From an uncultured Lachnospiraceae bacterium (GTDB taxonomy: Bacteria; Bacillota; Clostridia; Lachnospirales; Lachnospiraceae), in assembly GCA_944384025.1 (NCBI GenBank), contig CALWRS010000005.1, positions 50,758 through 114,757 on the forward strand: a stretch of 64,000 nt of DNA, read 5' to 3'. Made by a program: the position numbers and the translations under genes. The notes beneath the pieces are model-generated. The model was not told the DNA's origin, searched no databases, and was given only the letters and a program-made list of their open reading frames with translations. The first letter of the stretch is position 1. Each line of letters begins with the position of its first letter. This document shows positions 14,976 to 55,782 of this stretch, piece by piece.

Positions 14976-15652
14976 TTGCTACAATGCTTCAAAACCCGCG
15001 GATTTCCGACTACCTGCTCTCTTTTGAGCCCAATTTATCGGACGAGATGGAAGCGTTTCGAAAGGATGCAGAGGAAAGAGAAGTTCCGATTATCCGCAGG
15101 GAAGCGCAGGCGCCGCTTCGCTTTTTGGCGGTTTTGCGTCAGCCAAAAGAAATTTTGGAAGTCGGCACGGCAGTTGGGTTTTCCGCGTGTTTTTTAAGCG
15201 ATCTTCTTCCAGAAGCAAACATTACGACAATCGAAAAAGTTCCGGCAAGAATTGCAGAAGCGAAAAAGAATTTTTCGCGGCTTGGAAAAGAGCAAATTCA
15301 ACTGTTAGAGGGCGACGCGGCGGACGTTTTGCGCCTGCTCTTTGAAGAAAAAAAGAGGTATGATTTTATTTTCTTAGACGCTGCAAAAGCGCAATACGGA
15401 GTTTATCTGCCGTACCTTTTTTCCATGCTTTCAAAAGGCGGGCTGCTTGTTACAGATAATGTATTTCAGGAGAGCAGCCTAGCGGACTCCAAATTTACCG
15501 TTACACGCAGAAACCGAACGATTCACATGCGTATGCGTGAATACGTGGAAAGTCTGTTTGCATGGGACGGCTTAACAACGGTTTTGCTTCCGATTGGAGA
15601 CGGCATGGCAGTATCGGTGAAACAGACAGAGCATACGCATACACAGGAATGA
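14972..15652 (+). CDS. trmR: tRNA 5-hydroxyuridine methyltransferase TrmR-like
   Basis: SAM-dependent O-methyltransferase of family 3 (226 residues). Seen: RREAQAPLRFL, ILEVGTAVGFSACFL (SAM loop), DFIFLDAAKAQYGVYLPYL and LLVTDNVFQE. TrmR methylates ho5U34 of tRNA to mo5U34. The next gene encodes the U32 protein TrhP, which makes ho5U34, so the pair forms one pathway. The start overlaps the previous stop (ATGA), with GGAGG 10 bases upstream. Confidence 0.88.
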   Translation: MIATMLQNPRISDYLLSFEPNLSDEMEAFRKDAEEREVPIIRREAQAPLRFLAVLRQPKEILEVGTAVGFSACFLSDLLPEANITTIEKVPARIAEAKKNFSRLGKEQIQLLEGDAADVLRLLFEEKKRYDFIFLDAAKAQYGVYLPYLFSMLSKGGLLVTDNVFQESSLADSKFTVTRRNRTIHMRMREYVESLFAWDGLTTVLLPIGDGMAVSVKQTEHTHTQE

Positions 15653-15660
15653 GGAAGAGC

Positions 15661-16893
15661 ATGAGGACGGAGAAAAAACCGGAGCTGCTAATTCCGGCGG
15701 GCAGTTTGGAAGTTTTAAAAGTCGCCGTTATTTACGGAGCCGACGCGGTTTACGTCGGCGGAGAACTGTATGGTCTGCGTGCAAAGGCCAAAAACTTTTC
15801 AACGCAGGATTTGCGCGAAGGGATTGCCTTTGCGCATGCACACGGAAAGAAGCTTTATGTAACTGCGAACATTACGGCGCACAACGAGGATATTCCCGGG
15901 ATTCGGGAATATTTTGCTACATTGGCAAACGAAAAGCCCGACGCGCTTATTATATCCGACCCCGGCGTGTTTTTGCTTGCGCGGGAACTTTGCCCGGAAA
16001 TTCCGGTGCATATCAGTACGCAGGCTAACAACGTAAATTATATGACGTATCGCTTCTGGCACCGTCAGGGAGCCGTGCGCGTCGTAAGCGGCAGAGAACT
16101 TTCTTTAGCGGAAATTGCTAAATTGCGGGAGAAGATTCCGCCGGAGCTGGAAATTGAAACGTTTGTGCACGGCGCAATGTGCATCTCTTACAGCGGACGC
16201 TGCTTGCTTTCCAACTACATGACCGGGCGGGACGCAAATCAGGGAGCCTGCACGCATCCTTGCCGCTGGAAATACTACCTGATGGAAGAAAAACGCCCCG
16301 GTGAATATTTTCCGGTAGAGGAAAACGAGAGAGGGACATACATTTTCAACTCCAAGGATTTGTGTATGGTATCGCACATTCCGGATCTTGTAAATGCCGG
16401 TATCGATAGTTTTAAAATCGAAGGACGGATGAAGACGGCGCTCTACGTTGCCGTCGTAACAAGAACTTACCGCAAGGCGATTGACGACTTTTTGGAAGAC
16501 CCGAAACGCTATGCGCAAAATCTTTCGTGGTATCAGGAAGAAATTAGCAAATGCACTTACCGAAGCTACACGACCGGCTTCTTCTACGGAAAACCGGGGA
16601 CGGACGCGCAAGTGTACGAAGATAACTTTTACAACAGAGAATACGTTTATTTAGGACTTGTATCCGGATGGGAAGACGGTTTTGTCCGGATCGAACAAAG
16701 AAATAAGTTCTCGGTTGGCGAAGAGATTGAAATTATGCGGCCGGACGGCGGCAACTGCACAGCGCAGGTTCTGGAAATGCGCGATGCAAACGGGACGCCG
16801 ATGCAGTCCTGCCCGCACCCTAAGCAGACAGTGTTTGTCCGTTTGTCCGAGCCGGCAGCCGAATACGATATTCTGAGAAAAAAAGGCTCTTGA
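15661..16893 (+). CDS. trhP: U32 family tRNA hydroxylation protein TrhP
   Basis: Peptidase-U32-type protein (410 residues) needed for prephenate-dependent hydroxylation of U34 in tRNA. Hallmarks are ELLIPAGSLEVLKVAVIYGA, AVYVGGELYGLRAKAKNF, VHISTQANN and the Cys-rich signature GAMCISYSGRCLLSNYMTGR, followed by QGACTHPCRW and FKIEGRMKT. A C-terminal beta domain follows. ATG 15661 is preferred because GAGG at 15651-15654 precedes it; an in-frame ATG at 15649 is too close to any site. It follows trmR with an 8-base gap. Confidence 0.9.
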   Translation: MRTEKKPELLIPAGSLEVLKVAVIYGADAVYVGGELYGLRAKAKNFSTQDLREGIAFAHAHGKKLYVTANITAHNEDIPGIREYFATLANEKPDALIISDPGVFLLARELCPEIPVHISTQANNVNYMTYRFWHRQGAVRVVSGRELSLAEIAKLREKIPPELEIETFVHGAMCISYSGRCLLSNYMTGRDANQGACTHPCRWKYYLMEEKRPGEYFPVEENERGTYIFNSKDLCMVSHIPDLVNAGIDSFKIEGRMKTALYVAVVTRTYRKAIDDFLEDPKRYAQNLSWYQEEISKCTYRSYTTGFFYGKPGTDAQVYEDNFYNREYVYLGLVSGWEDGFVRIEQRNKFSVGEEIEIMRPDGGNCTAQVLEMRDANGTPMQSCPHPKQTVFVRLSEPAAEYDILRKKGS

Positions 16894-16956
16894 TGGAAAA
16901 GCAATTTTTGCGTCCGCTTCGCATAATCTGTTACATCTTGGAATCCGGAGTCTTGT

Positions 16957-17595
16957 GTGAAAGCATTTCCAAAACCTCTGGCCGCCGAAGAAGAGGCGAA
17001 AGCGGTAGCTGCTCTTCAAAACGGAGACCGGCAGGCACGGGACGTCCTGATACGGCATAACTTGCGCCTTGTTGCGCACATTGCAAAGAAATACGGTTTC
17101 CCTGAAAGGGATATGGATGATTATCTTTCCATTGGAATTATTGGGCTGATTAAAGCGATTGACACCTTTGACAATACAAAGGGAATTCGTCTTGCAACCT
17201 ATGCCTCCCGATGCATTGAAAACGAAATACTGATGGCAATCCGGGGGAATAAAAAACAGAACCGGGAAGTGTACCTAAACGACTCCATAAACAGCGACAA
17301 AGAAGGAAAAGAAATTCATTTGCTTGACATTATGGAGGAACCGCAAGAAGACTTGAGCGAACGGCTTGTAATGGAAGACGATGTCCGGGCGCTTCGCAAA
17401 GCGATGAAAGAACAGCTTTCGCCAAGGGAATACGAGATTTTACAGCTTAGGTACGGATTTACAACCGGAAGAGAATATACGCAAAGAGAAGTGGCCGGCA
17501 AATTTGGCATTAGCAGAAGCTATGTCAGCCGGATTGAAAAAAAAGCGATCGCAAAATTGCGCAGCGCGCTAGAAGAGAGGAATCGGAGAACATGA
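16957..17595 (+). CDS. sigK: Sporulation sigma factor SigK
   Basis: Late mother-cell sigma factor (212 residues). Region 2 contains RHNLRLVAHIAKKYG, DDYLSIGIIGLIKAIDTF and LATYASRCIENEILMAIR; the linker reads DSINSDKEGKEIHLLDIM, typical for SigK; region 4 has REVAGKFGISRSYVSRIEKKA. GTG 16957 with GGAG at 16947-16950. The protein starts right at KAFPKPL, where mature Bacillus SigK begins, so no pro-sequence is present, and the gene is not split by a skin-type element. GCATAATCT at about 16920 resembles a SigE -10 box, but I see no good -35. Confidence 0.9.
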   Translation: MKAFPKPLAAEEEAKAVAALQNGDRQARDVLIRHNLRLVAHIAKKYGFPERDMDDYLSIGIIGLIKAIDTFDNTKGIRLATYASRCIENEILMAIRGNKKQNREVYLNDSINSDKEGKEIHLLDIMEEPQEDLSERLVMEDDVRALRKAMKEQLSPREYEILQLRYGFTTGREYTQREVAGKFGISRSYVSRIEKKAIAKLRSALEERNRRT

Positions 17596-18374
17596 GAGGA
17601 CTTATCAAAACAGGGAGTTGTATTTTGCTGATCCTTGTTCTGGTCGTTGGATGTCAAAAAACAGGAAGCAGCCAAAGCGTTACGCAGCCACAGGGCATTA
17701 CCATTCTGCCGACGTATACCCCGACGCCCTGGGCGACGAAGGACCCGGTAGTTCATCCGGTATCTGCAGAGTCGTATCGTCTCGCGCCGATGCTGTCCGG
17801 GGGCTACGAACCGATATGGGATAGCTGCGAGTCTATACCTATAGAGACGGTTGTTCGGGGAAAAGGAAGCACGGAAGCGTCCTATAAGTTTATATGGTCG
17901 GAAGACAGGATTTATGTCCAGGTGCATGTAACAGATACAACGCCCGACGTTTCCGGCTCCGATTATCTGAAAAAAGATTCCGTTGTCTTTTATTTGAATG
18001 AAAACGGACAGAAAAACGAACGCTACGGAATTGGCGACTCTTACTGTGCGGTAGACCGCGAGGGCATCTTATACAGAGGCACCGGCTGCGATGAAGAAGG
18101 TTTTCGCGCGGTTTGTTACGAAGAAGTGGACGAAAACGGCGAATGCATCGGCTATTACGCGGAAGCGTCGATTCCGCTTTTGACGATTCGGGCGGAGCAA
18201 GGTGTAACGATTGGTTTTGACGTGCGCGTAAACGACGCGCAGGATGCGAGACTGCGCTACGCCCTGCAATGGTCCGACGGAAGTTCGCACACCGATGTGA
18301 ACTTGCACGGCGTAGGTCTTTTGACACTTGGAGACGTGAAGGAGGAAGGAGAGAGCAATGAAACCGATGAATAA
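17592..18374 (+). CDS. CBM9-like carbohydrate-binding lipoprotein
   Basis: A 260-residue lipoprotein: hydrophobic segment LILVLVVGC with the lipidated Cys21. After a short Thr/Pro spacer (residues 35-50) comes one family-9 carbohydrate-binding domain: IWDSCESIPIE, YKFIWSEDRIYVQVHVTD, DSVVFYLNENGQK, YYAEASIPLL, TIGFDVRVNDAQ and ALQWSDG. CBM9 modules bind sugar chain ends. The start overlaps the sigK stop (ATGA), so it may be co-expressed with sigK late in sporulation; this is inference. The same domain recurs in the next gene. Confidence 0.83.
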   Translation: MRGLIKTGSCILLILVLVVGCQKTGSSQSVTQPQGITILPTYTPTPWATKDPVVHPVSAESYRLAPMLSGGYEPIWDSCESIPIETVVRGKGSTEASYKFIWSEDRIYVQVHVTDTTPDVSGSDYLKKDSVVFYLNENGQKNERYGIGDSYCAVDREGILYRGTGCDEEGFRAVCYEEVDENGECIGYYAEASIPLLTIRAEQGVTIGFDVRVNDAQDARLRYALQWSDGSSHTDVNLHGVGLLTLGDVKEEGESNETDE

Positions 18375-19365
18375 AAAATCTCATGCCGGCTTTTTCTTGT
18401 TTGCAGCGGCTGGTTTTTTGCTGTTTGTCTCCTTTCTCTTTCTTTGTGCCAGGCAGGTTTTTGCCGAACAGGAAGAAAATGCAGATGCGCCGACTGCTGA
18501 ACCTACGCAGGACGTGGCTGCTCCCGTAACGCCGGAAGATACGCCCACGCCGGAGCCGACGGATACGCCGACCGATACGGCGACGCCTACGATCGAAGTT
18601 TCGCCGACCGATGCGCCCTCGCCTACGCCCGTTCCGACGCCTACGCCGGAAGCTACGCCGGAGCCGACGCCTCCGGAAGTTTCTCTAACGCCCAGCGCAT
18701 CGCCTACGCCGTCTTGCACGGCGACGCCTACGCCTACGCCGTATGCTACGGTCATACCGCCGGATGAGGAGACGCATTACAATGTTCCTGAAACCGACAA
18801 GTCGGCCAGCGTTTCCGAAATTCTGCGAATCGACGTAGATGCAAGTGTGGAAGAAGCGTGGAACTGGTATAGCCAGATTCCTATCGAAAACGTTTCTTGG
18901 GGAGAGAACGGAGCGACCGGGTCGTTTCAGGTGATTTGGACGGATGATGCGCTCTACGTTTTGGTACGCGTAGTCGATGCAACGTACGACGTTTCTTCCG
19001 AGCTGTTTTCTCGAAAAGACTGCGTGGAAGTGTTTCTGAACGAGGCAGGGAATCTGCCATCTGCATACGGCGCCGGTGACCAGCATTATCTAGTGTCGCG
19101 TGCCGGTGAAGTAAAGTACGGCAGCGGTGCAAACGAAGAGAGCTTTCTTGCGGCAGCAGCAGAGACGGAAGACGGTTATATTGTGGAAATGAAGATTCCT
19201 TTTCAGATCATTCGCCCGTCGAAAGAGACAACGATTGGCTTTGACGTAAGAATTAACGATTCGCATGGACAGGGAAATCGGGATTATATGATACAGTGGA
19301 GCGACACATCTATGTATACGCATGTGGATTTGTCGAAGATTGGTACGATTTTGCTAAAAGAGTAG
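18358..19365 (+). CDS. Membrane or secreted CBM9-like protein with Thr/Pro linker
   Basis: A 335-residue protein: N-terminal hydrophobic segment (residues 10-31, FFLFAAAGFLLFVSFLFLC) with a possible cleavage after VFA. A 100-residue linker made of TPTP, EPT and DTPT units follows, then a CBM9-like domain from about residue 150. The domain repeats the landmarks of its neighbour: FQVIWTDDALYVLVRVVD, DCVEVFLNEAGN, VEMKIPFQII, TIGFDVRINDSHG and IQWSDT. The two genes are tandem paralogues. It overlaps the previous gene by 17 bases, with GGAGGAAGGAGAG before the ATG. Confidence 0.82.
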   Translation: MKPMNKKSHAGFFLFAAAGFLLFVSFLFLCARQVFAEQEENADAPTAEPTQDVAAPVTPEDTPTPEPTDTPTDTATPTIEVSPTDAPSPTPVPTPTPEATPEPTPPEVSLTPSASPTPSCTATPTPTPYATVIPPDEETHYNVPETDKSASVSEILRIDVDASVEEAWNWYSQIPIENVSWGENGATGSFQVIWTDDALYVLVRVVDATYDVSSELFSRKDCVEVFLNEAGNLPSAYGAGDQHYLVSRAGEVKYGSGANEESFLAAAAETEDGYIVEMKIPFQIIRPSKETTIGFDVRINDSHGQGNRDYMIQWSDTSMYTHVDLSKIGTILLKE

Positions 19366-19395
19366 GACGATTGTTCACCGGAAATGAGGAGTAGT

Positions 19396-20940
19396 ATGAT
19401 CAGTTTAATGAGTCCGGACAGACCGCTTTCGTACGAGGAAGTTGCAAAGCTTGTAAAGCCAGATTTTATGGAAGATCTGAGTTTGGATTACGTAATTTCC
19501 AACGTGATGGCTGTACGGGAGGAGCAGGAGCTGCGACCGTATTTTTACTGGACTTCGCCGGATTTTGAGACGAGCCGTTACCGGCAGGAAGTTAGCCGGG
19601 ATCTGCGCGACCCTGCGATTCGCGCGACCGTAACCGACTTTATTGCAGGCGTGACGACGGCGGTTCGCTATTTGCAGTTTTCCGAGGCGGTATCGATTTC
19701 TGCGCAGAAGTGGAAATGGCGGCTGGACGGTATTTTGACGTATTATCAGGCGCTTGAGGATCTTTGCACCCGCTTTAACGAAGTGCAGCCAAGAGCGAAA
19801 GCGTTTTACGCCGCGCACCAGAGGTTTTTTGAAATTTTAAGCTCGCAGGAAGTGCAGAAGCTGCGCGGGAAATCGCAAAATCTAAACCGTGAATTCCTTG
19901 CGATGCGCTATCACCTTACGATTAACAAAGACCGGGCGACGCTTACGTTTCAATACGACGATACAGATTATTGCTTTCCGATTCGCGATGCGTTTGCGCA
20001 TGGAAACGCCGACCCGTCTCCGGTATATTTTGAGGGAAGTCCTTTTTCTTCCGGAATGGAACTTTCTCCCCTGGAAGAATTTATCCTAAACCAGTTTTAC
20101 AAAAACAACCGAGTTCTCTTTCGCGATTTGGAAACTTTTTGCGGAATACGCAGAGAGATTGTCACGCAGGAGACGCTTGATTTTATACGGGAAATCCGGT
20201 TTTATCTGATGGTGCTTGAATTTGAAGAGAAGCTAGAGGAAAAAGGGTTCCCGTTTACTGTTCCGCTTATTGTAAAGGACAAGGAGCTTTATCTGGATGA
20301 CTGCTACGATATGGCGCTTGCCATACACCACGCGGAAATTAAAAAAGAAGTCGTGTTTAACGACATTATGAAAGCCAATTTCGAAAAAGCGATTATCGTA
20401 ACGGGACCGAACCAAGGCGGCAAAACAACGCTTGCAAAAGCGTTTGGACAAGCGTTTTATCTAGGCATGATGGGCTTTCGCGTTCCGGGCCGTCTTGCGA
20501 AACTTCCTTTTGTCAATCAAATTTATACGTTGTTTTCCTGCAAAAATGCCGGAATTAACGTCGAAAGCCGCCTGCATACGGAGTTGCGGCGCGTTCAGGC
20601 AATGCTTGAGACAATTGGAAACCGCAGCATTGTAATTATGAACGAGCTTTTCACATCCGCGCCAACGATGGATGCGCTGGCGATGAGCCGCGCGCTTATG
20701 CAAACGCTTTTAAAGAACGTGCACGCTATTTGCTTTTGCGTGACGCATACGTATGAGCTGGCCGGCGATTCCGACGATTACGTCAGCCTAGTAGCAACGG
20801 TTGTGGAAGACGGAACGTTTCGGCGGACGTTTCGCATTGTTCGTAAGGAGGCAAACGGAATTGCGTTTGCGAATTCCATAGCAGACAAGTACAAGCTTGA
20901 CTACAGCCATATTAACTATCGGATTCAAAAGAACGGGTAG
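19396..20940 (+). CDS. MutS-like ATPase, first of a tandem pair
   Basis: A 514-residue protein with MutS core and ATPase domains but no mismatch-recognition domain. A domain III-like helical part (residues 1-290) precedes the ABC-type ATPase: Walker A GPNQGGKTT at residue 337, Walker B IVIMNELF and the His loop CVTHTYELA. In MutS the Walker B ends Asp-Glu; here it is Asn-Glu. ATG 19396 is preferred over ATG 19384, since GAGGAG at 19386-19391 overlaps the latter. It is a paralogue of the next gene; mismatch repair is unlikely and the true role is unknown. Confidence 0.82.
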   Translation: MISLMSPDRPLSYEEVAKLVKPDFMEDLSLDYVISNVMAVREEQELRPYFYWTSPDFETSRYRQEVSRDLRDPAIRATVTDFIAGVTTAVRYLQFSEAVSISAQKWKWRLDGILTYYQALEDLCTRFNEVQPRAKAFYAAHQRFFEILSSQEVQKLRGKSQNLNREFLAMRYHLTINKDRATLTFQYDDTDYCFPIRDAFAHGNADPSPVYFEGSPFSSGMELSPLEEFILNQFYKNNRVLFRDLETFCGIRREIVTQETLDFIREIRFYLMVLEFEEKLEEKGFPFTVPLIVKDKELYLDDCYDMALAIHHAEIKKEVVFNDIMKANFEKAIIVTGPNQGGKTTLAKAFGQAFYLGMMGFRVPGRLAKLPFVNQIYTLFSCKNAGINVESRLHTELRRVQAMLETIGNRSIVIMNELFTSAPTMDALAMSRALMQTLLKNVHAICFCVTHTYELAGDSDDYVSLVATVVEDGTFRRTFRIVRKEANGIAFANSIADKYKLDYSHINYRIQKNG

Positions 20941-20951
20941 CGAGGAACTGC

Positions 20952-22496
20952 ATGAAGGTACATTTGTTACAACCAAAAGATAGAAACGTCTACGAAACCG
21001 TTGCGCCGTTTCCAAACGACTTATTCGAGGATTTGCAGCTCGATTCTATTTTACAGATTATGGCAAAGCAGGATCGGTACGTTTATCAGTCGTGCCGGAG
21101 GATTTTACTGGATCCGCTTACGGACCTTTCGGTTATCCAATATCGCCAAAAGGCGATTGAAGACGTTTTGCAAAATAAAAAGAGCATTCTGGAACTTTAC
21201 GTAACGGTAGCGGAAGTTGTTACGGATTTGAGTAATTACAAGGACCGCTTAAAAAAGCGCGGAAATCCGTCCGCTGCCATCCGTGTGATTGATTCGATTG
21301 AGATGCTTGATATTTTGGCGGTGGGGCTTGAAAAACTAAAAGCGGAGATTACGAACACGTACGGACACTTTCACTCAGAAAATTTCCGCGAGTTTTACGA
21401 TACGTTTTTGCAGGAATTCGATTCGAATTTCATGCAAATGATCCATCAAAAGCGTCAGACGCTGCAGGCGCTGCAAGTAGGCGGAGAAATCCAAATCAGC
21501 GCGCAGCTTGGCGCCGGACTAAAAAGCGAGCGATTTCTTGTAAATTCGGTTGCGGAGTATCAAAGCAAGCACAAATTTGACAAGATTGAGTCGCTGTTTT
21601 CGACCCTGATAAAAAAAGACGAAATCCGAATCAACTACGATGATCTGCGTCTTTCTGCGGACTGCAAAGACCTAGAAAATGCAGGGCTTCTTCATATTGC
21701 CAATTACTTTGACTCTTTTTCCAGAGAAATTCAGCGTCTGTTTGAGAGCCTTCGTTCGCAGCTTGCCTTTCTTTACGGCTGCGCGAATTTGCATACGCAT
21801 ATGTCCGGCATGACGTTTCCGGTTTGCTTTCCGGAATTTGACGTTGAGCAGCAAAGCCCGATGGCACTTGACTTGTATGACTTAAGTCTTGCAATCAAGA
21901 CGCTTCGCACACCGGTGACGAACCGTTTGTCGGACGGAGAAGTGCTGCTTTATCTTGTTACAGGAACGAACCAAGGCGGAAAGACTTCTTTTTTACGCAG
22001 CGTAGGCACGGCGCAATTAATGGCGCAAAGCGGCTTGTTTGTACCGGCGGGCACGTTTCGGACGTGCATTTACCGCGGCATTTATACGCACTTTATCCGA
22101 AACGAAGACATTACGATGACAAGCGGGAAGCTCGAAGAAGAACTCTCAAGGCTTAGTAAGATTATTGACCGCGTAAAGACCGGCTCGCTTATTTTACTAA
22201 ACGAGTCGTTTGCCACGACATCGGAGCGGGAAGGGGCGAATATTGCCGAGGAAATTGTCCGGGCGTTTTACGATAACGGCATTACCTGCTTTTTTGTCAC
22301 GCATATTTATGCGTTTGTAAAAAAAGCGTACGAGGAAGCGTGGGAGCGCACGCAGTTTTTGCAGGCGCAGCGGCTCGATGACGGGACTAGAACGTTTCGG
22401 ATTTTGCCCGGAGAACCAAGCAGCACCGGCTACGGAATGGAACTGTACCGGCAAATTATCGGCGAAGCGGGCGCGGGGACAGATAGAGAAGCGTAA
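20952..22496 (+). CDS. MutS-like ATPase, second of a tandem pair
   Basis: A 514-residue paralogue of the previous protein, 11 bases downstream. Shared landmarks include an N-terminal FPNDLFEDLQLDSIL (VKPDFMEDLSLDYVI in the partner), a domain III-like helical region, Walker A GTNQGGKTS at residue 338, Walker B LILLNESFATT (again Asn-Glu), and FVTHIYAF. It lacks the DNA-mismatch domain. Equal length and nearly equal position of Walker A suggest duplication and perhaps a heterodimer; this is inference. A C-terminal tail ends GMELYRQIIGE. Confidence 0.82.
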   Translation: MKVHLLQPKDRNVYETVAPFPNDLFEDLQLDSILQIMAKQDRYVYQSCRRILLDPLTDLSVIQYRQKAIEDVLQNKKSILELYVTVAEVVTDLSNYKDRLKKRGNPSAAIRVIDSIEMLDILAVGLEKLKAEITNTYGHFHSENFREFYDTFLQEFDSNFMQMIHQKRQTLQALQVGGEIQISAQLGAGLKSERFLVNSVAEYQSKHKFDKIESLFSTLIKKDEIRINYDDLRLSADCKDLENAGLLHIANYFDSFSREIQRLFESLRSQLAFLYGCANLHTHMSGMTFPVCFPEFDVEQQSPMALDLYDLSLAIKTLRTPVTNRLSDGEVLLYLVTGTNQGGKTSFLRSVGTAQLMAQSGLFVPAGTFRTCIYRGIYTHFIRNEDITMTSGKLEEELSRLSKIIDRVKTGSLILLNESFATTSEREGANIAEEIVRAFYDNGITCFFVTHIYAFVKKAYEEAWERTQFLQAQRLDDGTRTFRILPGEPSSTGYGMELYRQIIGEAGAGTDREA

Positions 22497-22502
22497 ATTT
22501 GC

Positions 22503-22532
22503 AAAAAAAAAGGGAAGTCCAAACGACTTCCC
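22503..22532 (-). terminator. Terminator of tRNA-Leu
   Basis: On the minus strand GGGAAGTC (22532-22525), loop of 5, GACTTCCC (22519-22512), then nine T (22511-22503). A strong Rho-independent terminator directly after the tRNA; it may also stop the plus-strand MutS-like transcript, though no T run follows on that side. Confidence 0.9.
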
Positions 22533-22534
22533 AA

Positions 22535-22617
22535 TGCGGATGGCGGGACTTGAACCCGCACGAGCGTGAACTCGGCAGATTTTGAGTCTGCTGCGTCTGC
22601 CATTCCGCCACATCCGC
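22535..22617 (-). tRNA. tRNA-Leu(CAA)
   Basis: Minus-strand class II tRNA of 83 bases. Acceptor GCGGATG (22617-22611) pairs with CATCCGC (22542-22536), with discriminator A at 22535. The anticodon arm is GCAGA-CTCAAAA-TCTGC, giving anticodon CAA, which reads UUG. A long variable arm follows and the T arm contains GGGTTCAAGTCCC. The CCA end is not encoded. A promoter and a terminator flank it closely. Confidence 0.96.
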
Positions 22618-22628
22618 TAACGAATGGC

Positions 22629-22657
22629 ATTTTACCATAGGACTTTTCATTTTGCAA
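22629..22657 (-). promoter_or_regulatory. Promoter of tRNA-Leu
   Basis: Minus strand TTGCAA (22657-22652) and TAAAAT (22634-22629) are separated by 17 bases; transcription would begin a few bases before the tRNA. Confidence 0.75.
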
Positions 22658-22688
22658 TACCCAAAAAAAATTTTTGGAGAGGATAGCT

Positions 22689-23210
22689 GTGGATTGTAAG
22701 GAAGCAAAATCACTGATAGAGGCTTATATTGAGCATAAAATCCCTGCCGGAAAGCTGCCGCAGTTTTTGGATCACATGCAGCAGTGCAAAACTTGTCTGG
22801 ACGATTTGCAGGTGCAGTACGCGATTTGCACGGCCATTGAGCAATTAAACCGTGGGGAAGACTTTTCGGACGACTACAACTCCGAAGTGCAGCGCGATTT
22901 AGCAAAAAACAGGCAGCAGCTTATGCGCCATGCCAGAAAAATCCGCTTTCTTCGCGTAGTTACGCTGCTTTTGTTTGTCGTATCCGGGTTTGCGATTGGT
23001 CTAACGAATACAAAAAATGTTTTCCGCACGTATCTGCCTTCTACGCAGGAGTCTCGGTTTTCTCTTGACTACTACGGGATTGACCGTTCGCGCGACCCAG
23101 TTTACCAGGCAATTCAAAAGTATAACGAAGAAGTGATTGCAAAACTTCGCGAGCTTGAGGCCGAGCAAAACAAAGAGCTTCCGGACGAAGAGAGGATGGG
23201 ACAGGAATGA
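22689..23210 (+). CDS. Anti-sigma-like zinc-finger membrane protein
   Basis: A 173-residue protein. The cytoplasmic N-terminus begins DCKEAKSLIEAYIEHKIPAG and carries HMQQCKTC, a His-x3-Cys-x2-Cys motif of zinc-binding anti-sigma factors (zf-HC2). One membrane segment follows (VVTLLLFVVSGFAIGL, about residues 99-115) and then a 55-residue outer tail ending in a charged helix. No sigma factor gene stands next to it. GTG 22689 is chosen from GGAGAGG at 22676-22682. The stop overlaps the polA start by 4 bases. Function is not known. Confidence 0.7.
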   Translation: MDCKEAKSLIEAYIEHKIPAGKLPQFLDHMQQCKTCLDDLQVQYAICTAIEQLNRGEDFSDDYNSEVQRDLAKNRQQLMRHARKIRFLRVVTLLLFVVSGFAIGLTNTKNVFRTYLPSTQESRFSLDYYGIDRSRDPVYQAIQKYNEEVIAKLRELEAEQNKELPDEERMGQE

Positions 23211-25966
23211 GCAAGGATTACCTTTTGATTATTGATGGTTCGAGTTTATTGTCAACGCAGTTTTACGGCAACCTTCCAAGAGAGGTGCTAATGGCAAAGA
23301 CGCCCGAAGAACGCGAGCGGTTTTATCATAAAATCATGAAAACGTCTACCGGTGTTTTTACAAACGGCATTTATGGGTTTTTGCGGGCGCTGTTTAAGAT
23401 TATGCAGCAGCAGCCACCGGCCTATCTTGCCGTTACATGGGATTTAACGAGAGATACGTTTCGGCGGAAGCTGTATGCGGACTACAAGGCGAATCGTTCC
23501 GAGACGATGCCTCCGCTTGCCGAACAGTTTGCGAAAATGCAGGAAATTCTTGGGCGCATGGGCATTCGGCAATTTATGGACATGCGTTACGAAGCGGACG
23601 ATTTTAGCGGAACGCTGGCGCGGAAGTTTGAAGCCGAAGTTCCGGTTTGCATTTTGACAAAAGATCACGACTACCTGCAGCTGGCGTCAGAGAATACGAC
23701 CATCTGGATGCTTTTGTCCGCGCAAAAAAAAGCCGACGAATTGTTTGAAAAATATCACATGACAAAAGAAGAGGCAAACTGTCCGGAGAAAGTATTTCCT
23801 TTAACGCCGGAGCTTGTGAAAAAAGAATACGGCGTGCCGCCGGCCTCTATTGCCGCCCTTAAAGGACTTATGGGCGACAATGCGGACAACATCAAAGGAG
23901 TTCCCGGCGTTGGCCCGGCGACCGCAGTGGCGCTTATTGCGCACTACGGTTCAATTGAAGCGCTGTACGAGGCGATTGACGCGGACGCGCAATCCGGCTA
24001 TGCGCACATCACGGCGCAGTGGAAACAGGAGCTTTCCATAAAACGTAATCCGCTCTCTTTTTTGTTAAAGGAAAACGACAAAGAGCTTGTTGGCAGAAAG
24101 GCAGCGAATTTAAGCAGGCAGCTTGCGACAATTTGTACCGACTTGCCGGTATCCGAATCGCTTGCAGACTTGAAGCTGGCGCCCAATTGGCAGGAAGCCG
24201 ACCGAATTTTGCGGGAACTGGAAATTACAAGCTTGCATCTTCCTGCGGGCTGCGACGCCGGTGCGGCAGAGGAGAAAGGCTTTAAAAAGCCGGAGCATAT
24301 AGAGCGTATCGCGGATTTGGCGCGGGCAGAGCAGGTGCTTTGCGGGGAAGCATGGGAAGGCGAATGGATTGGCATCTTCCGCGAGGTTACAAACGAAAAT
24401 ACGGTTTGGTGGCTGGCAAACGGACATACGGCGTACGGCGTAGAAATTGGCAATTTCCTTTCCGAAGAGCTGCTTTCGCAGCGTTTGGAAGCCTTGGCAA
24501 AAAGAGGTATGCGCTATGCGGTCTGGGACTTTAAGGCCCACTTGCCGGTTCTTCCAAAGGACAGCCGGAGCGTATTTGACTTGTGCCTTGCCGATTATTT
24601 GCTTCGCCCGCTCACAACGGAGCATGGCCCGTTAGAGGTGGCTGCCGTTTGGTTTGAGAATCGTTTTGAGCAGCTTAGCGGCGCACAACTTGCCCTGTTT
24701 TCGCTTTCGGCACGGGAAAAGCTTGACGAGGAGCTTGCAAGCAAAGGACTTACAACGCTTTACGAGACGATTGAACTGCCGCTTGTTCCGGTGCTTTATG
24801 AAATGGAGAAAAACGGAATTGGCGCGGATTATGAAGCGCTTGTTGCCTACGGGGAGGCGATGGTTTCCGCTATTGAAGAAGAACAAGCGGAAATATATCG
24901 CCTTGCCGGAGAGACATTTAACATTAACTCCCCTAAGCAGCTGGGAGAAATTTTATTTGTAAAGCTGAAGCTTCCGTACGGGAAAAAGACAAAAAGCGGG
25001 TATTCGACCGCGTCGGATATTTTGGAGAAGCTTCAGGAGGAATACGAAATTGTGCGCCGCGTCCTTCATTACCGGCAGCTGACGAAGCTAAAATCCACTT
25101 ACGTGGACGGAATGAAGGATTGCATCCGGGAGGACGGAAGAATTCACAGCAGCTTCAACCAGATGATTACGGCTACGGGGCGGTTAAGTTCCACGGAACC
25201 GAACTTGCAAAATATTCCTATCCGTTTTGCTCTTGGAAGAGCGCTTCGAAAGGTGTTTGTTCCGGAAGAGGGCTTTGTGTTTCTGGATGCAGACTATTCG
25301 CAGATTGAGCTGCGGCTGATGGCGCACATGTCGGGAGACGAATCGCTGATTGCAGCCTTCCAAAATCAGGAAGATATTCATCGTTCGACCGCGTCGCAGG
25401 TTTTTGGCGTGCCTTACGAACAAGTGACGAACCAGCAGCGAAGCGCCGCTAAGGCCGTGAATTTTGGAATCATTTACGGAATCAGTTCCTTTTCGTTGGG
25501 ACAGGATTTGAATATCCCGCGCAAACAGGCTGAGGAATATATTCAAAATTACTTCACGCGTTATAAAAAGGTAAAGCAGTATCTGGATCAGCTTGTTGCG
25601 GATGCCAGACAAAATGGAGAGGCAAAAACGTTATATGGTCGAATTCGCCCCATTCCGGAGCTTTCGTCCTCCAATTTTATGCAGCGCGCCTTTGGAGAGC
25701 GGGTTGCTATGAATATGCCAATTCAAGGAACGGCGGCGGATATTATTAAAATTGCCATGCTGCGCGTTTTTCGTGCGCTAAAGGAGCAGGGACTTCGCTC
25801 GCGTCTTTTGCTTCAGGTGCACGACGAGCTTTTGATTGAGACGGTAAAAGAAGAAGTGGAACAAGTAAAGAAGCTGCTTGCAGAAGCAATGACCCATGCG
25901 GCGGATCTTTTGGTGTCGCTTGAGGTGGATATTCACGAAGGAAACAACTGGTATGAGGCGAAATAG
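23207..25966 (+). CDS. polA: DNA polymerase I
   Basis: Repair and Okazaki-fragment polymerase (919 residues). The 5'-3' exonuclease domain (1-310) shows YLLIIDGSSLL, DRFxRK-type basic residues in DTFRRKLYADYKANR, TKDHDYLQL and GVPGVGPATAVALI. The middle 3'-5' domain lacks the paired Asp-x-Glu of proofreading enzymes (EWIGIFREV instead) and is probably inactive. The polymerase domain has ATGRLSSTEPNLQNIPIR, DADYSQIELRLMAHMSGD near residue 692, AAKAVNFGIIYG and VHDELLIE. It is followed 12 bases later by coaE, a common neighbour in Firmicutes. Confidence 0.97.
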   Translation: MSKDYLLIIDGSSLLSTQFYGNLPREVLMAKTPEERERFYHKIMKTSTGVFTNGIYGFLRALFKIMQQQPPAYLAVTWDLTRDTFRRKLYADYKANRSETMPPLAEQFAKMQEILGRMGIRQFMDMRYEADDFSGTLARKFEAEVPVCILTKDHDYLQLASENTTIWMLLSAQKKADELFEKYHMTKEEANCPEKVFPLTPELVKKEYGVPPASIAALKGLMGDNADNIKGVPGVGPATAVALIAHYGSIEALYEAIDADAQSGYAHITAQWKQELSIKRNPLSFLLKENDKELVGRKAANLSRQLATICTDLPVSESLADLKLAPNWQEADRILRELEITSLHLPAGCDAGAAEEKGFKKPEHIERIADLARAEQVLCGEAWEGEWIGIFREVTNENTVWWLANGHTAYGVEIGNFLSEELLSQRLEALAKRGMRYAVWDFKAHLPVLPKDSRSVFDLCLADYLLRPLTTEHGPLEVAAVWFENRFEQLSGAQLALFSLSAREKLDEELASKGLTTLYETIELPLVPVLYEMEKNGIGADYEALVAYGEAMVSAIEEEQAEIYRLAGETFNINSPKQLGEILFVKLKLPYGKKTKSGYSTASDILEKLQEEYEIVRRVLHYRQLTKLKSTYVDGMKDCIREDGRIHSSFNQMITATGRLSSTEPNLQNIPIRFALGRALRKVFVPEEGFVFLDADYSQIELRLMAHMSGDESLIAAFQNQEDIHRSTASQVFGVPYEQVTNQQRSAAKAVNFGIIYGISSFSLGQDLNIPRKQAEEYIQNYFTRYKKVKQYLDQLVADARQNGEAKTLYGRIRPIPELSSSNFMQRAFGERVAMNMPIQGTAADIIKIAMLRVFRALKEQGLRSRLLLQVHDELLIETVKEEVEQVKKLLAEAMTHAADLLVSLEVDIHEGNNWYEAK

Positions 25967-55675: not shown

Positions 55676-55782
55676 TCGCAGAGTAGAATTGCGTGCGTTA
55701 AGTGCCGAAGGAACGGGGAGTTGTCCTTCGGACGAAAAGAGAAATCTTGCGGTACGCAGTTCGCATCCCGCTGCTACCCTTG
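55676..55782 (+). promoter_or_regulatory. Tetrahydrofolate (THF) riboswitch
   Basis: The region carries the conserved THF-I core: GAGTAGA at 55681, GCGTTAAGTGCC near 55694, a hairpin CCGAAGGA/TCCTTCGG, GACGAAAAG near 55731, then TTGCGGT and GCATCCCGCTGCTAC (55763-55777) closing the aptamer. Downstream, TCCTTTC at 55791-55797 can pair with GAAAGGA at 55816-55822, which is the ribosome site of folT, so THF probably shuts translation; a T run behind it might also allow termination. The class regulates folate transport and synthesis, as the next genes fit. Confidence 0.93.

Follow-up and report, generated by a model that had tools for sequence, protein, structure and literature searches.

A MutS4-type gene pair in a Lachnospiraceae genome and its sister pairs, often behind fluoride riboswitches

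In Mycobacterium yongonense, MutS4A and MutS4B are encoded by adjacent genes, with the stop codon of the first overlapping the start codon of the second, an arrangement credited to Lin 2007; the two were once read as a driver of recombination, and their genomic island also contains an enolase (PMC5742357). A mutS gene was also listed under the crcB RNA motif by Weinberg 2010 and read as DNA repair (PMC2864571). The crcB-motif fluoride-riboswitch regulon is treated in two reviews (PMC11139923, PMC7266159); enolase is one of its members. The present work concerns two adjacent MutS-type genes, here called A and B, located at positions 19396 to 22496 of a 64,000-nucleotide stretch, “the window”, from an uncultured Lachnospiraceae bacterium (assembly GCA_944384025.1, contig CALWRS010000005.1, positions 50,758 to 114,757 of the forward strand).

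The terms “MutS”, “mismatch” and “DNA repair” are absent from the main text of the 2024 fluoride review (PMC11139923), and passages of PMC6317114 mention a plasmid-borne mutS and, separately, a gene for CrcB. Our literature search, with most subscription papers lying outside its reach, found no paper linking MutS4 with fluoride. The pair in the window is neither a chance product nor wholly undescribed: it belongs to an A-B twin of ancient origin, in line with the published MutS4A/MutS4B subfamily. An earlier first-pass annotation of the window had singled it out as a candidate undescribed system, a claim overtaken by the published MutS4 genes and by the mutS behind the crcB motif. The probable role of the pair is in the response to a cellular stress, not in mismatch correction. 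A stress role is proposed because sister pairs in many microbes often sit behind fluoride-sensing riboswitches.

The gene pair and its family

Family, pairing, motifs, clades, and the association with riboswitches and neighbours were established by computation. The features of the pair in the window are:

19396-20940, + strand: gene A, MutS4A-like subunit, 514 amino acids (open reading frame; Pfam MutS_V; A clade in trees)
20952-22496, + strand: gene B, MutS4B-like subunit, 514 amino acids (open reading frame; Pfam MutS_V, weak MutS_III; B clade in trees)
19386-19391, + strand: likely ribosome-binding site of A, GAGGAG (read in the sequence)
20942-20946, + strand: likely ribosome-binding site of B, GAGGA (read in the sequence)
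20404-20427, + strand: Walker A of A, GPNQGGKT, residues 337-344 (alignment; Gly-Lys invariant in 63/63 A rows)
21963-21986, + strand: Walker A of B, GTNQGGKT, residues 338-345 (alignment; Gly-Lys invariant in 63/63 B rows)
20641-20646, + strand: Asn-Glu at the end of Walker B of A, residues 416-417 (63/63 A rows)
22200-22205, + strand: Asn-Glu at the end of Walker B of B, residues 417-418 (63/63 B rows)

An alternative in-frame ATG at 19384 would lengthen A to 518 residues; 19396 is preferred because the GAGGAG is well placed for it. The genes are separated by 11 bases, with no stop/start overlap. Both match Pfam MutS_V well above the cut-off of 30.2 bits (A 74.9, B 75.4), B has a sub-cut-off match to MutS_III, and neither matches MutS_I or MutS_II at E-values up to 1. 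In a profile-profile comparison, B aligns with residues 305-778 of MutS1, that is, with the core and the ATPase part. The mismatch domain also appears to be missing from A, judging by its length and the Pfam result. The first-pass annotation had thus correctly described twin 514-residue genes, 11 bases apart, with Walker A at residues 337 and 338, Asn-Glu instead of the usual MutS Asp-Glu, and no mismatch recognition.

The window A scored 585 bits and the window B 627 bits on the profile of their own subunit, and 121 and 175 bits on that of the other. Apart from the pair, the genome (1.9 Mb, 19 contigs) encodes three further MutS_V proteins, which we take, by size and profile score, to be MutS1, MutS2 and a third MutS-like protein. 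The gene for the last (560-575 amino acids, about 562 in L060; Asp-Glu) lies directly upstream of mutS1 (L060 5050-6738, G000:C2).

A scan of named genomes gave at least 593 pattern matches, at least 570 of which were relatives. The counts below refer to the best 80 of these 570 loci, ranked by similarity to the window B and therefore not a random sample; they come from bacteria and archaea, and some metagenome bins may carry a wrong organism name. A directly preceded B in all 78 loci that contained both genes, and the other two were cut by contig ends, which bears out the co-occurrence that the first-pass annotation had proposed to survey. A and B overlap by four bases in 58 of the 78. The 11-base gap of the window is a local departure, as L134, L135 and other loci of the same clade retain the overlap. 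The nearest named relative, with 86% identity to B, is from a Lachnospiraceae metagenome bin (L129). One locus, L150, has its A gene split over two frames and was excluded from the alignments. Within the genus of the window, A was matched at E-values up to 1e-25 in 22/22 genomes and was full length in 21; in the remaining one the match covers residues 4-191 at a contig end. A second A-B pair is present in 13 of the 22.

The asparagine lies in Walker B and is a mark of the family. Asn-Glu was found in 63/63 A rows and 63/63 B rows, and in 284 of 296 family rows, which include fragments and some genomes reached by two routes; the others comprised two Asp-Glu rows, one suspected assembly artefact, and nine rows with a gap at the column. 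Rows of MutS1, MutS2 and KamC, the ATPase of a lysine 5,6-aminomutase reactivase, carried Asp-Glu in 12/12 cases. In genus member G002, Walker B of the second-pair B protein has the residues FFFNDTATTE (L057 7249-8928), a suspected carry-over of adapter sequence into the assembly, and the A protein of G011 has an altered P-loop, GPEKSGKT, with Asn-Glu retained (L123 10863-12485).

More distant Asn-Glu relatives comprise single genes, other twins, and one natural fusion, in which two Asn-Glu MutS-like proteins are joined in a single gene of 1116 amino acids (L110 6038-9388). A second such fusion is cut by a contig end (L122 6082-7999). The first-pass annotation had held that a majority of single-gene relatives would refute its reading. 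This does not apply to the A-B clade, but many single genes do occur among the distant relatives. The deep-branching twins L115 (4284-8402), L117 and L118 have no recognisable MutS Walker A and are directly followed by an rmuC-like gene, identified by eye. Another deep-branching twin, in L102 (1559-18001, G275:C3), lies in a cluster that by eye resembles peptide or non-ribosomal biosynthesis, with YcaO-like, radical SAM and acyl-carrier genes. A small membrane protein is encoded immediately upstream of this twin, and a comparable small gene precedes that of L114.

All trees were quick searches with support from the Shimodaira-Hasegawa-like approximate likelihood-ratio test (SH-aLRT) only. Rows of A and B, 15 each, formed separate clades with a support of 100 each, and of 99 each in another tree, as expected of the paralogues proposed earlier. 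Both subunits divided into the same two groups, L and F (support 80 and 98 for A, 99 and 99 for B), and a joined A+B tree separated clade L (27 rows) from clade F (61 rows) with a support of 98 and 100. Clade L is mostly Lachnospiraceae and includes the window pair, and the 61 clade F rows carry 14 phylum labels. The total of 62 clade F loci used below includes five that are outside the tree (L150, L158, L174, L184 and L202), assigned to F as not clade L by a name list.

The clades also differ in the ATPase site. At residue 451 of A, the position of the MutS ATPase-motif His, clade L has His (17/17) and clade F Phe (46/46), whereas B has His throughout (63/63). In MutS proteins, a serine acts in trans; at the position matched to it by eye, 49/63 B rows have Ser and 56/63 A rows have Gly. 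Because of these His/Phe and Ser/Gly patterns, the two composite ATP sites should differ from each other, and also between the clades.

Fluoride riboswitches at the clade F loci

The Rfam fluoride riboswitch model RF01734 was found in 10 of 11 loci scanned, which had been chosen partly for fluoride-type neighbours. A model built from the 20 riboswitch sites, R1, was used for a wider search; its sites were drawn from 10 of the 41 loci that it finds positive, and its E-values are rough. R1 gave 74 hits in 41 of the 80 named loci, compared with approximately 0.56 expected from its density in 10 pair-bearing genomes. All positive loci belonged to clade F (41/62, against 0/18 for clade L). In the joined tree, the riboswitch was upstream of the pair in 32 clade F rows, elsewhere in the locus in 11, and missing from 18, compared with 0/27 positive rows in clade L. 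A second Rfam scan agreed with R1 in 11/11 loci, chosen as R1-positive, and RF01734 was absent from the ten clade L loci scanned with Rfam. Among 52 other loci (window, genus, single genes and other twins), R1 had hits in five, all of them clade F twins.

Of the 54 evaluable clade F pairs, those with enough upstream sequence, 31 had an R1 hit on the same strand within 400 bases upstream of A. Of these 31 hits, 26 are at sites outside the R1 seeds, and 26 score 28 bits or more (the five below are in L148, L161, L186, L196 and L197). Two clade F pairs also have other riboswitches nearby, c-di-GMP-I (L147 13180-13269) and cobalamin (L172 4437-4645).

The neighbouring genes paint a similar picture. 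Among the 62 clade F loci, the families encountered were MFS transporters (15), DUF190 (14), dynamin-like GTPases (14), enolase (12), CrcB (8), universal stress proteins (Usp, 8) and Na/H exchangers (4), and each of the seven was found in 0/18 clade L loci. These shared families suggest fluoride resistance. Of 72,556 plasmid records, 48 contained a gene related to B of clade F, many of them labelled “DNA mismatch repair protein MutS”; 21 of the 48 are typed as conjugative. The Escherichia coli plasmid p027_SK3a carries an island annotated with a fluoride riboswitch, an antiporter, Usp, A and B; on the facing side follow a second annotated fluoride riboswitch, a DHHA2-domain protein, Usp, enolase, phosphoglycerate mutase, CrcB and a P-type ATPase. 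This pair was found by near identity in one of 5,426 E. coli genomes. An Enterobacter plasmid has a similar arrangement, and in a Rhodococcus plasmid CrcB and enolase are close to the pair. In mycobacteria, A occurred in 5 of 148 genomes (one being M. kyorinense, already counted), with an R1 hit just upstream in 5/5, and an MFS match was found in two of four 18-19 kb stretches around the gene.

A fluoride role is thus well supported for clade F. Since these pairs often sit behind fluoride riboswitches, alongside exporters and extra copies of enzymes that fluoride inhibits, the job of the module in this clade is likely that of coping with fluoride.

A proposed clamp and competing explanations

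In MutS proteins, two P-loops make composite ATP sites at the dimer interface. We infer that A and B form an obligate heterodimer of this kind, with a clamp action on some target, and with a stress role that may extend to the window pair. The proteins would retain the MutS lever and ATPase domains and dispense with the mismatch and connector domains, and ATP bound at the A/B interface would make the lever arms clasp and release the target. In Walker B, the Asp helps to hold Mg and the Glu activates water. The Asn in place of the Asp is for this reason expected to weaken Mg-nucleotide binding and to slow hydrolysis while the catalytic base is kept, which would favour a long-lived ATP-bound clamp. 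The two sites would be unequal, as B mostly keeps the trans Ser and A mostly has Gly. In clade F, the module most likely frees or protects a target, protein or ribonucleoprotein, that metal-fluoride has jammed. In the branch of the window, where the ATPase His is kept in both subunits, the same kind of remodelling is expected to act on a stress target that is not tied to fluoride.

We give this reading, a MutS4-type obligate heterodimer acting as an ATP-driven clamp for a stress-jammed target, fluoride-linked in clade F and riboswitch-free in the window, a probability of roughly 45%. It is supported by the P-loop Lys, invariant in 63/63 A and 63/63 B rows, by the Asn-Glu invariant in the same rows, by the natural 1116-residue fusion in a more distant lineage, by the strict A-then-B order, by the parallel L/F split of both subunits with its His/Phe marker, and by the riboswitches and fluoride-type neighbours of clade F, the E. 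coli plasmid island and the mycobacterial pairs included. For a stress-jammed target that may be protein, ribosome or DNA, an ATP-gated heterodimeric clamp is the most economical mechanism. A bolder version is speculative, and we would not bet on it: MutS4A/B would be a machine for fluoride stress that was wrongly filed under DNA repair, namely a heterodimeric remodeller of MutS fold that releases metal-fluoride-jammed enzymes, GTPases or ribosomes, with Asn-Glu producing an ATP-locked clamp, the loss of the His in A marking the fluoride-specialised branch, and the window branch using the same machine for another jam.

Several observations weigh against the proposed stress clamp. In clade F, 21 of the 62 loci have no riboswitch hit in the examined stretch, and 23 of the 54 evaluable pairs have none just upstream. 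The sole R1 hit of the Rhodococcus plasmid is at crcB, with none before A, and the four mycobacterial stretches contain no CrcB or enolase by the search used. Asn-Glu is older than the fluoride link; as fluoride-free relatives share it, the idea that the motif is an adaptation to fluoride was set aside. A DEAD_2/Helicase_C_2 helicase-like gene lies upstream of four closely related clade L pairs (L140, L142, L143 and L145; Pfam was run on L140 only), and rmuC, by eye, lies beside a deep-branching degenerate twin. Kim 2017 reports that an rpoB fragment was inserted more often in M. smegmatis when it carried the MutS4 operon (PMC5742357), which favours a DNA role.

Also against it, the window itself gives no sign of a fluoride link. 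RF01734 was not found in the window at Rfam gathering scores, nor at E-values up to 1 over positions 15000-23500, and R1 had no hit at the locus. Neither CrcB nor a fluoride riboswitch was matched in the genome. None of the seven fluoride-type neighbour families occurred in 15 genus and window loci, and RF01734 was present in only one of the 22 genus genomes, away from the pair; by eye, this riboswitch precedes an antiporter-like gene (L209, G004:C4:26495-26572). Therefore, while its family and pairing are secure, a fluoride role for the window pair, tested by riboswitch, CrcB and neighbour searches, is unsupported. The window does contain a tetrahydrofolate (THF) riboswitch elsewhere (55677-55775, + strand, 97.5 bits).

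Of the other explanations, a heterodimer acting on DNA survives best, though we consider it unlikely. It would bind branched or damaged DNA and promote recombination or repair, in line with the proposal for mycobacterial MutS4, in clade F in response to the DNA damage accompanying fluoride stress. The MutS fold of both subunits, the M. smegmatis insertions, the original interpretation of the crcB-linked mutS, and the DNA-related neighbours of some lineages (the DEAD_2 helicase, and rmuC by eye) all speak for it. Yet the pair has no mismatch domain in a genome with separate MutS1 and MutS2, and recombination leaves unexplained both the enolase of the M. yongonense island and the fluoride riboswitches of mycobacteria (5/5).

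More doubtful is a sensor or signalling switch, in which the ATP-bound dimer would relay the nucleotide or Mg state to another protein with no remodelling. Such a switch would suit the slow sites expected of Asn-Glu from general Walker B chemistry and the asymmetric motifs of A and B, but a constant partner for it is missing. No neighbour family occurs in more than 15 of the 80 named loci, and the Clostridia twins share only generic neighbours. A common partner gene was sought among the Clostridia loci, with only generic ABC-transporter and radical SAM genes as the result.

A local role in the genus of the window, tied to a cell-surface operon, appears slightly less probable still. It is prompted by the genes just upstream of A:

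17592-18374 and 18358-19365, + strand: two CBM9-domain genes (both above the Pfam cut-off for CBM9_1)

In five named genus loci the pair is likewise preceded by related genes, and the full-length pair is kept in 21/22 genus genomes; however, different genes surround the second pair of the genus and the remaining pairs of clade L. We list the CBM9 genes as neighbours in the genus, not as functional parts.

Two further explanations can be largely dismissed. That the genes are relicts with no present role is very improbable: in the sample examined, most other genera of the family lack the pair, but the genes are intact, their motifs invariant, and they are kept in 21/22 genus genomes and across two clades. 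Least credible of all is a KamC-type reactivase of a B12 enzyme, for although KamC is the best NCBIfam match of B (76.4 bits) and an example of a MutS relative with an annotated action on a protein, the score is far below the 300-bit cut-off, nothing in the window genome exceeds that cut-off, KamC has Asp-Glu (6/6 rows) and a partner that is not MutS-like, and it groups with MutS2 in the tree; a KamB/KamC identity was set aside on score, motif, partner gene and tree.

Anti-phage defence and phage origin were rejected as well: PADLOC gave A three weak P-loop matches (best E-value 0.013) and B none, and one partial match (48% of the query) was found among 50,697 phage records.

The proposed stress clamp concerns a MutS branch that is present in bacteria, archaea, and plasmids of enterobacteria and soil bacteria, and that is often annotated as “DNA mismatch repair protein MutS”. 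The fluoride riboswitches at about two thirds of the clade F loci examined (41/62) point to an unstudied step of fluoride resistance, and they make testable the older listing of mutS with the crcB motif, which in 2010 was interpreted as DNA repair. The riboswitch-free sister clade of the window, with its ATPase His intact, offers a natural comparison for what changed. The proposal also bears on the published view that MutS4 drives recombination in mycobacteria.

Comparison with known systems

Like MutS4A/MutS4B, the window has two adjacent MutS-type genes, A then B, consisting of core and ATPase only, and its pair groups with the twin of Mycobacterium kyorinense. Unlike them, its genes are 11 bases apart with no overlap, and it belongs to clade L, with no riboswitch link and with His instead of Phe at residue 451 of A. 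Because the overlap is missing and the comparison covered the M. kyorinense twin, not the published MutS4 sequences, we call the pair MutS4-type and not a strict member. As to the fluoride-riboswitch regulon, the sister pairs of clade F are behind RF01734 or beside its usual genes, whereas the window pair has no such element or neighbour.

With MutS1 the window pair shares the core and ATPase part, as seen in the alignment of B with residues 305-778, but it lacks the mismatch and connector domains, has Asn for Asp in Walker B, and is made of 514-residue proteins, compared with the 860-residue MutS1 reading frame of the same genome. KamC (NF052383) is likewise an ATPase of the MutS type, close to the pair in length and with an enzyme as its annotated target; it differs in its Asp-Glu and its non-MutS-like partner, and the window proteins score 53.3 (A) and 76.4 bits (B) against its cut-off of 300. 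MutS2, finally, resembles the pair in core and ATPase (46.9 and 61.5 bits for the two window proteins, below the cut-off of 400), but the window proteins are far shorter and MutS2 has Asp-Glu. MutS2 acts on collided ribosomes as well as on DNA.

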